A stretch of 36,443 bases of DNA from an uncultured Pelagibacteraceae bacterium (GTDB lineage: Bacteria; Pseudomonadota; Alphaproteobacteria; Pelagibacterales; Pelagibacteraceae). A model generated the notes under the pieces. That model made no database searches. It was not told the DNA's origin and saw only the letters and a list, made by a program, of their open reading frames with translations. Of this stretch, positions 21,842 to 23,674 are shown in pieces. Location of the stretch: NCBI GenBank assembly GCA_902549495.1, contig CACCVU010000006.1:1-36443 (forward strand), written 5' to 3'. The position numbers were made by a program, and so were the translations under genes. Numbering within the stretch: position 1 is the stretch's first letter; each line of letters opens with the position of its first letter.

Positions 21842-22450
21842 TTAACTAATTAAAAAAATACCAACTTTTGAAAAAAGATTTTTAATTTCTAAATTACTTT
21901 TTTTTATCAATGATGTTTTGTTTTCATTAACTCCAACCACTTTTTTAATAATAATATTTTTCTCATCACAAAAATTAAATAAATCTTTTATTGTGCACAT
22001 GTGTAAATTAGGAGTATTATACCAAGTATTTGGCAGTGTTTTTGTAACTGGCATTTCACCAAAAAGTAAAAGCTTTGTTCTTACTTTCCAGTAGCCAAAA
22101 TTGGGAATAGAAATGATAACTGATTTTCCAATTCTTAAAAGATTTTTTAAAACTTTTTCTGGCTCATAAAATGCTTGTAAGGTTTGACTCAATACAACAT
22201 AGTCAAATGATTTATCAGGAAATTGATGTAATTCAGTTTCTGCATTACCCTGTATAACTGGCAAGCCTTTATAAATACATTCTTGAACATTATCTTGATT
22301 AAGCTCTAGTCCACGTACCTCTACATTTTTTTCTATTTTGAGGAGATACATTAAAGATCCGTCTCCACACCCTATATCAAGAACCTTCGAGTTATTAGGT
22401 AATAAATCTGCAATTACTTTAAATTCTTTTTTCATTTTTAAATTTTTCAT
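21842..22450 (-). CDS. metW: MetW, methionine biosynthesis methyltransferase-like protein
   Basis: SAM-dependent methyltransferase fold, with motif [12 protein letters not shown] at residues 19-29 and the family stretch [20 protein letters not shown] followed by [11 protein letters not shown]. MetW occurs with MetX in many proteobacteria, where the pair supports homoserine acylation (established for some species; its exact chemistry is not settled). The start at 22450 overlaps metX by 32 bp; Met6 (22435) is an alternative that leaves a 17-bp overlap. Either way translation is coupled to metX, and so is under the metX riboswitch. Confidence 0.93.
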
Positions 22451-23558
22451 ACATAGAGTCTATAAAACCTTTAAGTGTTTTTAAAAATTCAGGTTCATCA
22501 AGTAAAAAAGAGTCATGCCCTCTATCTGTAATTATCTCAGAATATGAGACATCTGCACCTGATGCATTTAATGCTATTACTATATCTTTGTTATCTTTTG
22601 TTGTGTAAAGCCAATCAGAGGAAAATGATATTATTAAGAATTTTGTTTTTTGATTTTTAAATGCCTCTACTAAACCTCCTTTAAATTGTTTTGATAGATC
22701 AAAATAATCCATTGCTCTGGTTATATATAGTACTGAGTTAGCATCAAACCTTTCAACAAATGCATAGCCTTGATGTCTCAAATAGCTTTCAACTTGGAAA
22801 TCAGCATCAAAACTAAATTCATAATCTGCCTTTTCCTGTAATTTTCTTCCAAATTTTTCCTGCATACCTTTTTCAGATAAATAACTTATGTGACCCACCA
22901 TTCTTGCAACTGCTAACCCATTTTTGGGTTGAACGTCTTTTAAAACATATTTTCCATTATCCCATACAGGATCTGCCATAATTGCTTGACGAGCTAATTC
23001 ATTAAGAGCAATATTTTGAGCACTATGACTTGAACTACAAGCTATCGGAACAGCTGAAAAAGCTTTATCAGGAAATGTTGCACAAAATTGTAAAAGTTGC
23101 ATTCCTCCCATTGAACCCCCAGTCGCGCATAAAAGTTTCTTAATTCCAAGATGTTCAAGTAATGATTCCTGAGCTCTAACCATATCTTTAATTGTTATAA
23201 CTGGAAAATCCAATCCGTAAGGTTTTTTTGTTTTCGGATTAATATCTTTCGGACCTAAAGAACCCATACACCCTCCGATCACATTTGCACAAATAACAAA
23301 ATATTTGTTTGTATCTATCGCCTTTCCTGGACCCACCGCTGTGATCCACCATCCCTCTTTATTAGTAATAGGATTTATCTCAGTCACGAACTGATCTCCT
23401 GTTAGAGCATGAAATACAAGTATCGCGTTGTCTTTGTTATCATTCAATTTCCCGTAAGTCTCGTAAGCGAGAGGAAAATCTTTTATAGTTTTTCCGCAGT
23501 CCAATTTAAGCGGATTAGTAACGTTTAATTTCTTTATATTCTCAAGTTTTATATTCAT
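22419..23558 (-). CDS. metX: Homoserine O-acyltransferase MetX
   Basis: Alpha/beta-hydrolase-fold transferase acylating homoserine as the first dedicated step of methionine synthesis. The catalytic triad is visible as S149 in [13 protein letters not shown]315 in [10 protein letters not shown] and H348 in [10 protein letters not shown]. The length of 379 residues is standard. Sequence alone does not settle whether acetyl-CoA or succinyl-CoA is the donor, because MetX proteins paired with MetW include both kinds. The start codon lies only two bases after the U-tract of an intrinsic terminator, and no Shine-Dalgarno sequence lies between them. The SAM-II riboswitch just upstream makes it a SAM-repressed gene. 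Confidence 0.95.
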
Positions 23559-23560
23559 TC

Positions 23561-23586
23561 AAAAAAAAAGCCCAGCTAAACTGGGC
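23561..23586 (-). terminator. Intrinsic terminator of the metX attenuator
   Basis: On the - strand GCCCAG (23586-23581), loop TTTAG and CTGGGC (23575-23570) form a 6-bp G/C-rich stem followed by nine T (23569-23561). This is a textbook rho-independent terminator placed between the riboswitch and the metX start codon. Its 5' arm and loop can instead pair with the riboswitch 3' end. Confidence 0.9.
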
Positions 23587-23601
23587 GTCCCCTTTTTAGC
23601 T
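23574..23601 (-). promoter_or_regulatory. Predicted antiterminator hairpin of the metX leader
   Basis: AGCTAAA (23601-23595), part of the riboswitch core, is a perfect reverse complement of TTTAGCT (23580-23574), which comprises the terminator loop and the first two bases of its 3' arm. Inside it GGG (23592-23590) can pair with CCC (23585-23583) around a GACG loop, leaving an AA/AG internal loop. This 7+3 bp fold cannot coexist with the terminator or with the ligand-bound riboswitch. The complementarity is seen directly; the switching role is inference. Confidence 0.65.
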
Positions 23602-23641
23602 ACATTTATTATGCGCTTGCAATATGGTTAAATCAGCGCGA
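23589..23641 (-). promoter_or_regulatory. SAM-II riboswitch controlling metX
   Basis: The - strand carries the SAM-II (metA element) core in order: CGCGCTGATTTAACC, ATTGCAAGCGC, ATAATAAATG and GTAGCTAAAAAGGGG. From memory it is nearly identical to the Sargasso Sea metX SAM-II aptamer used for the crystal structure. Stem P1 pairs GCGCT (23639-23635) with AGCGC (23617-23613); the next pair, C-G in the reference, is C-A here. The class folds as a pseudoknot that binds S-adenosylmethionine. With the terminator directly downstream, SAM should stop metX-metW transcription. Confidence 0.93.
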
Positions 23642-23645
23642 ATTA

Positions 23646-23674
23646 TGTTTACTAAATCATCACAAACTTGTCAA
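23646..23674 (-). promoter_or_regulatory. Promoter of the metX riboswitch transcript
   Basis: On the - strand a perfect -35 TTGACA (23674-23669) is followed after 17 bp by TAAACA (23651-23646), a weak -10 matching three of six positions. Transcription would begin near 23640, at the first bases of the riboswitch, which supports the assignment despite the poor -10. Confidence 0.5.

Follow-up and report, generated by a model that had tools for sequence, protein, structure and literature searches.

The question raised by this locus is at which level a SAM-II riboswitch controls metX, the gene that follows it. SAR11 bacteria rank with the most numerous cells of the ocean, and the logic of their SAM-II leaders therefore bears on marine sulphur use. 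The metX aptamer serves as the reference for SAM-II folding and is quoted to illustrate how translation is controlled by hiding a ribosome-binding site (RBS) (PMC10907184, PMC6061858, PMC5780412). It is counted as a rare SAM-II that acts on translation in PMC6061858, while PMC10907184 and also PMC5780412 describe direct occlusion of an RBS that lies in P2. The window, i.e., the whole stretch of 36,443 nt from an uncultured Pelagibacteraceae bacterium (contig CACCVU010000006.1) that was analyzed here, carries a SAM-II aptamer, an antiterminator, a terminator, and nine U ahead of metX on its minus strand. Judged from sequence and modelled folding, this riboswitch would very probably switch off metX, and metW with it, by ending transcription, and its antiterminator would involve the aptamer core.

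Organization of the metX leader

All parts of the leader lie on the minus strand. The -35 element TTGACA (23674-23669) is followed after 17 nt by the -10 element TAAACA (23651-23646), a weak match to the consensus, and the promoter was absent from the output of a sigma-70 scan. The P1 hairpin of the SAM-II aptamer, located by the RF00521 match, pairs GCGCU with AGCGC (23639-23635 with 23617-23613) around L1 (23618-23634). The invariant core (A)GCUAAA (23601-23595) is the 3' ligand-binding segment of the aptamer and at the same time the 5' strand of the predicted antiterminator. It is followed by AAGGGG (23594-23589), the 3' strand of pseudoknot P2, which is named as the RBS in print for the metX aptamer. 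The inner antiterminator strand GGG (23592-23590) within AAGGGG pairs with CCC (23585-23583), and the inner GGG/CCC hairpin together with the 3' strand UUUAGCU (23580-23574) spans 23592-23574 in the RNAfold prediction. An intrinsic terminator lies between aptamer and gene, with the hairpin GCCCAG-UUUAG-CUGGGC at 23586-23570 and a tract of nine U at 23569-23561. The first-pass annotation had placed promoter, aptamer, antiterminator, and terminator before metX, and its positions proved correct throughout; the exact reverse complementarity of AGCTAAA (23601-23595) to TTTAGCT (23580-23574) and the inner GGG/CCC pairing that it described can both be read in the sequence.

metX encodes homoserine O-acetyltransferase and occupies 22419-23558 with its start codon at 23558 (NF001209, 510 bits against a cut-off of 331). 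Its 3' end is overlapped by metW (21842-22450, minus strand; TIGR02081, 237 bits against a cut-off of 189.5), and the two likely form one operon. By NCBIfam models gloB comes after metW, while hisC and a gene of the prephenate dehydrogenase kind, which scores under the cut-off of its best model, begin on the opposite strand.

The Rfam SAM_alpha model (RF00521) matched 23575-23649 on the minus strand with 26.3 bits. Because this is lower than the gathering score of 36, a default Rfam scan is silent and did not report SAM-II in the window at that score, while the E-value mode shows it. The gathering score is a detection threshold and not a structural feature, and the structural features of SAM-II are present in the window. 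A T-A to C-G change in a P1 pair among relatives (alignment A1) gives covariation support for the P1 hairpin. The eight ligand-contact letters U10, U11, A20, U21, U22, U46, A47, and A49 (bhmT numbering) have equivalents in the window, mapped by hand, and the core (A)GCUAAA includes those of U46, A47, and A49, which are ligand sites according to Feng 2024. The window aptamer is identical to the laboratory metX SAM-II 52-mer in 49 of 52 bases (3 differences), which suggests that the window RNA would bind SAM as well.

Predicted folding and proposed switch

The antiterminator (23601-23574) was assigned -12.0 kcal/mol and the terminator hairpin -9.6 to -10.8 kcal/mol by RNAfold, whose energy model contains neither pseudoknots nor SAM. 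The probability of the antiterminator core pairs was 0.963, 0.999, 0.988, and 0.945 for RNA ends at 23576, 23574, 23570, and 23566, respectively, the end at 23570 being the point where the terminator hairpin first becomes possible. The comparison of alternative folds that had been proposed with the original reading thus favored the antiterminator until the last U; once all nine U are made, the balance shifts to the terminator, whose stem then gains an A/U extension (-22.2 vs. -21.5, p 0.75 vs. 0.25). This terminator-favored state arises only with the polymerase already at the release site. P1 fits both folds, whereas the P2 pseudoknot is built from the core and AAGGG and excludes the antiterminator, so that an antiterminator built from aptamer bases and mutually exclusive with the ligand-bound form is predicted.

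In the proposed switch, for which we infer the transcription start, the binding of SAM by the window RNA, and the effect on termination, RNA synthesis would begin at about the first base of P1. With SAM bound, the pseudoknot would hold GCUAAA and AAGGG, the terminator arms would pair, and the polymerase would leave at the nine U. Without SAM, GGG would capture CCC as the terminator 5' arm emerges, and GCUAAA would zip onto UUUAGC in the loop and 3' arm; since the antiterminator is finished four bases ahead of the point at which the terminator hairpin could form, the polymerase would read on.

Conservation within the genus

Of the 101 genomes searched in the genus, 79 gave an RF00521 match and none exceeded the gathering score, so that annotation by that score omits these SAR11 elements. 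The genus search accepted E up to 0.1, where 2 of 14 control genomes also gave matches and the weakest rows may be noise. Of 119 match rows, 91 loci were examined (L001, L009-L098); of the other 28 rows, 24 are weak, with E of at least 0.0156, and 4 have E values from 0.007 to 0.0126. A readable core was present in 88 loci, while L016, L068, and L092 were missed by the core pattern, L068 being a tandem by its SAM-V match. The readable leaders comprise 73 before metX and 15 without metX, which are of the tandem type. SAM-V matched above its cut-off in all seven loci scanned, namely six of the 15 tandem leaders and one pattern-missed locus, and two proteins encoded downstream of tandems, a MetY-like and a BhmT-like one, matched at their starts the Pfam families expected for them.

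A terminator of the metX or tandem form occurred in 88 of 88 readable leaders, with nine T in 86 and ten T in 2. TTTAGC or TTTAGT was present in the terminator hairpin of all 88, TTTAGC in 85. All 72 metX leaders that extend far enough upstream contain the -35 sequence TTGACA (one further leader was too short), as do 14 of 15 tandem leaders, and the ten commonest -10 variants, which cover 71 of the 72 leaders, all start with TA. The pairing had first been described as a 7-mer, and as a conserved unit the 7-mer was rejected: 69 leaders have A directly in front of GCTAAA, 13 have T, and 6 have C (n = 88). The six pairs of GCUAAA with UUUAGC or UUUAGU are conserved and the seventh, outer A-U pair is not. 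The loss among relatives that had been named as damaging to the original reading was accordingly found for the outer pair, and some lineages also have an internal mismatch.

In the 295 kb of the window's own genome, three strong terminator-like sites were found, the window hairpin included. The other two strong terminators are apparently GGGGGCTTAGGCCCCC-T7 and GGGCGGGTATG...CATACTTGCCC-T9, at L134 (T-run offset 8357, plus strand) and L141 (T-run offset 829, minus strand). At E up to 10, RF00521 also matched nine other places of this genome with 9-14 bits; they were treated as noise because all 14 control genomes give matches at that threshold.

Terminator designs across the order

An aptamer-only model was built from 27 sequences with the terminator excluded and matched 367 of 397 genomes of the order. 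Since the terminator is absent from the search model, the hairpins found beyond the matches are an independent look. Leaders were taken from the best places listed, and L258 was omitted from the typed list (90 rows). Among the best matches listed, 145 of 177 leaders had a terminator by rule, 31 had none, and one was without the core. The terminators follow three designs, which are GCCCAG..CUGGGC in metX leaders, CCACC..GGUGG in tandems, and a second family with CCGCC..GGCGG or CCACC..GGUGG around a loop of 14-16 nt. For the comparison of cores with hairpins, 71 distinct pairs were used among the matches listed. L260, which has a doubtful hairpin, was dropped there and from folding, and L218 and L248 fall outside the fixed frame of the column count, both being kept in alignment A2.

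At least six contiguous bases complementary to the core region were present in 23 of 23 metX, 32 of 37 tandem, and 10 of 11 second-family pairs (distinct pairs, among the matches listed), the complement being shorter than six contiguous bases in five tandem pairs. Shuffled interiors reached a 6-base complement in 11.9, 19.5, and 13.4% of cases, respectively. Reversed hairpins reached at least seven bases in 1 of 23 metX, 22 of 37 tandem, and 0 of 11 second-family cases; with 22 of 37 the reversed-hairpin control is useless for the tandem group, and it was rejected there.

The antiterminator was dominant (p > 0.5) in 37 of 47 distinct metX leaders of the genus, 9 of 12 of its tandem leaders, and 32 of 40 leaders of other genera, a group that includes two second-family tandems (L218, L237). 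Shuffled interiors gave dominance in 6.8, 7.1, and 11.9% of cases, respectively. For the second family, it was dominant at equilibrium in 4 of 15 distinct leaders vs. 8.7% of shuffled ones. A probability of at most 0.5 for core-hairpin pairing was accordingly obtained in 13 of 59 distinct leaders from the genus, 8 of 40 from other genera, and 11 of 15 from the second family.

The second family brings in another form of contact, in which the loop would pair with the core while the terminator stem stays intact, and this loop-core pseudoknot would slow the hairpin or compete with SAM. The complement of the second family (UUAGUUG, UUAGCUG) lies wholly inside its 14-16-nt loop, so that there a loop-core pseudoknot or a kinetic effect would be needed, in line with the antiterminator being favored in so few of its leaders. 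However, the pairing of the window and of the metX leaders of the genus occupies one to two bases of the terminator 3' arm and also engages the 5' arm by way of GGG/CCC, which makes a contact with an intact stem rather improbable as the explanation of this leader.

Covariation of the antiterminator

Covariation between the two 7-mers had been suggested as a check on the pairing. The hexamer GCUAAA is invariant across leaders and its pairs cannot covary because it never varies; it is the flanking pairs that covary, in the tandem leaders. In 43 distinct tandem rows, the 12-pair antiterminator was formed in 89.3% of cells and the terminator itself in 98.4%. Changes on both sides were found at three pairs in 11 cells, with G-C to U-A in 3 rows, C-G to A-U in 4 rows, and U-A/A-U in 7 and 4 rows; these counts are not independent events because the rows are related, and one of the three covarying pairs is present in just 11 of 43 rows. 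None of 500 shuffles reached the cell count or the score, while 51 of 500 reached three pairs and 36 of 500 the number of pair types. With the antiterminator slid by one to three columns, at most two such cells remained. The earlier statement that the antiterminator consumes both the ligand-binding segment and the terminator is thereby backed by conservation, covariation, and folding together.

These counts also bear on the view that the terminator is constitutive, with a complement present by chance or inheritance and no switching. Relatedness inflates the counts and a 6-base complement arises in every fifth to eighth shuffled interior, which would speak for it. Yet the complement is kept in three terminator designs and two families, and double changes occur at the flanking pairs. 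Moreover, TTTAGC or TTTAGT is missing from all 24 other sites of the loosest terminator set in the 295 kb of the own genome, most of these sites being weak. We give a constitutive terminator hardly any credence.

The reference aptamer and the translational reading

The 52-nt metX SAM-II aptamer is printed as an RNA sequence in PMC8494917, and PDB 2QWY is described as a metX leader from a Sargasso Sea sequence (PMC8525861). Exact copies of the laboratory 52-mer were found in L009 and L010, both of this genus. In both leaders it is followed by GATGCCCAGTTTAGCTGGGCTTTTTTTTTGG and then the metX ATG, and both have the terminator. We take this 52-mer to be the RNA of PDB 2QWY.

Under direct occlusion, AAGGGG in P2 would be the RBS that is hidden upon SAM binding, as stated by reviews and by the SAM-V structure paper, and AAGGGG is indeed purine-rich. 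An ATG before the end of the T-run was found in 44 of 73 metX leaders of the genus, in frame in 43 of the 44, which would provide a closer start. Nevertheless, 29 of the 73 leaders, the window included, have no such ATG, and the frame is explained by the fixed lengths of hairpin and U-tract. From the end of the G-run to the metX ATG, 30-33 nt were counted in 73 of 73 leaders, with a terminator of nine or ten U between them, so that no RBS in P2 stands at working distance from the metX start codon in these leaders. The exact laboratory aptamer also precedes this terminator in both leaders that hold it, and direct occlusion is therefore regarded as very unlikely for the window.

An earlier ATG, as in the linker of L009 and L010 and in 44 of 73 leaders overall (in frame in 43 of these), would read through the terminator. 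The window has ACG in its place, and such natural variants are ready-made tests of the translational model. The metX ATG comes exactly two bases past the U-tract in 73 of 73 leaders (23556-23569 in the window for tract and start codon), and strong terminators are otherwise rare in this genome (3 sites in 295 kb); the U-tract may also serve translation.

Control at both levels, i.e., attenuation combined with a distant effect on translation of the kind described for S. meliloti metA, would account for the order of aptamer, purine-rich site, sometimes an AUG, terminator, and an AUG two bases past the U-tract, the last in 73 of 73 leaders. The purine-rich site is AGGAG in 13 of 73 metX leaders of the genus, and S. 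meliloti metA offers a precedent (Scheuer 2022). However, GGG is paired with CCC in the antiterminated fold, so that the site would be hidden in both predicted states of the window, and we consider a double action possible by analogy, though the less expected outcome.

Attenuation by a core-pairing antiterminator, the reading preferred for the window, may extend to the reference RNA. The relatives suggest that the best-studied SAM-II RNA acts by stopping transcription. On balance we lean towards the view that the metX aptamer of the crystal and single-molecule work, printed as translational, is natively a SAR11 transcription attenuator with the core GCUAAA as antiterminator strand, and that the SAR11 platform differs from the one most visible in other alphaproteobacteria. 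Should the metX aptamer natively adjoin a terminator, work on the isolated 52-mer leaves out the ligand's competing strand. The attenuator reading is a testable correction to the literature.

The probable tandem leader of HTCC1062 bhmT

The tandem of G491 lies at 1127473-1127524 on the minus strand, and its coordinates fall inside the HTCC1062 intergenic region 1127293-1127553 (Meyer 2009, PMC2704228), from which we infer that it is the HTCC1062 bhmT leader. Its RNA letters agree with those of Feng 2024 at U10, U11, A20, U21, U22, U46, A47, A49, and U82-U90. A like logic with a longer pairing is predicted here, in which CCUGCUAAAGCG (41-52) would pair with CGCUUUAG-A-CAGG (66-78). The eight core pairs had p 0.988-0.997 at all 18 RNA ends tried from 73 to 210, the folding being rough from 150 nt on because the nested model also opens P1.

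The predicted helix buries U46, A47, and A49. Feng 2024 describe SAM-II as unresponsive in the full-length RNA, with the response restored by blocking the linker and the reason not understood. An antiterminator that buries ligand contacts would explain this silence, and the prediction offers a direct, mutational test of the puzzle. In the same work, a DNA oligo on U83-U90 and beyond likewise restored the response; the pairing does not directly predict this effect, although the adjacent terminator hairpin could be favored in that case.

Leaders without the terminator

That all SAR11 metX leaders are attenuators was rejected. A scan of named loci gave at least 119 stretches, of which 80 SAR11 metX-type loci were given and examined. 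Among these matches listed, the hairpin was present in 25 of 80 (23 by the strict pattern, 2 variants) and 55 of 80 had no terminator. In the terminator-less kind the core runs nearly straight into T7-9, followed by a C/T-rich stretch and CAATTC. GAATTG in L1 and the complementary CAATTC downstream occurred in 55 of 55 terminator-less loci, and neither occurred in any of the 23 strict-hairpin loci (among the matches listed); the terminator-less pattern itself required AATTC, and the loci outside both patterns are the two hairpin variants only. L283 and L285 are examples among the 55; L401, which would be the HTCC1062 metX leader, is also of this kind, as are L200, L203, L204, L206, L207, and L209-L211. 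Without a terminator these leaders must work in another way, and GAATTG/CAATTC possibly marks another expression platform.

In genus g280, the loop is mostly UCUAG and once UAUGG, and the pairing is shifted outward as CAGCUA with UAGCUG or UGGCUG, while one g280 leader (L174) retains UUUAGC. By eye, L238, L239, L241, and L259 carry SAM-II-like elements of 43-45 nt with weak scores and a SAM-V-like sequence directly after, with no terminator between.

Comparison with other alphaproteobacteria and known systems

SAM-II aptamers before terminators and SAM-II before metX in Pelagibacter have long been known. As early as 2005, SAM-II was seen to be followed by terminators, with a promoter directly ahead of P1 (PMC1273637), SAM-II has been most often linked to terminators in alpha- and betaproteobacteria (PMC2258182), and Pelagibacter metX is preceded by SAM-II (PMC2704228). 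In the original 120 tandems the terminator always comes after SAM-II, and the bi-mechanism of the tandem is already known (PMC9481103). The P. ubique bhmT and metX SAM-II were counted as transcription-acting in PMC5069961, apparently with no terminator displayed in support. An antiterminator for SAM-II in SAR11 was not found in the literature, searched mostly below full-text level, and Poiata 2009 may show one. Nor did we find the pairing of the invariant core with the terminator loop in print at that level.

RF00521 matched 183 of 385 genomes of the class, and from the best places listed 50 loci of other alphaproteobacteria were taken, 46 with the core and 26 with a terminator beyond P2. At least six contiguous bases of the P2 3' strand could pair with the terminator 5' arm in 13 of these 26, compared with 6.8% after shuffling, while TTTAG, TTAGC, or TTAGT occurred in the hairpin of 1 of 26. 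A core-loop pairing common to other alphaproteobacteria was rejected on that count, and the P2 strand seems to serve as a common antiterminator in that group. We read GGG/CCC of the window as the equivalent of that P2-strand antiterminator, which would make the core-loop pairing a SAR11 addition.

The S. meliloti metZ SAM-II, for which a transcription end is predicted and an RNA of about 100 nt was observed (Scheuer 2022), represents a type that likewise has an aptamer, then an intrinsic terminator, and OFF logic. Leaders of this type differ in that the P2 3' strand pairs with the terminator 5' arm (13 of 26 of the best places listed), the core motif being present in 1 of 26. In the S. meliloti metA leader, the Shine-Dalgarno sequence (SD) controlled by SAM-II acts across a terminator on the downstream AUG (Scheuer 2022). 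It shares the order of SD, AUG1, terminator, and AUG2, but its authors were unable to predict a SAM-II driven antiterminator there (Scheuer 2022). The tandem SAM-II/SAM-V leader likewise has SAM-II, terminator, and U-tract, and its core pairs with the loop, but it forms a direct helix of the GCUAAAGCG:CGCUUUAGC type without GGG/CCC and is followed by SAM-V. The laboratory metX 52-mer, finally, shares 49 of 52 bases with the window; it is translational in print, whereas in the relatives it precedes a terminator and nine U.
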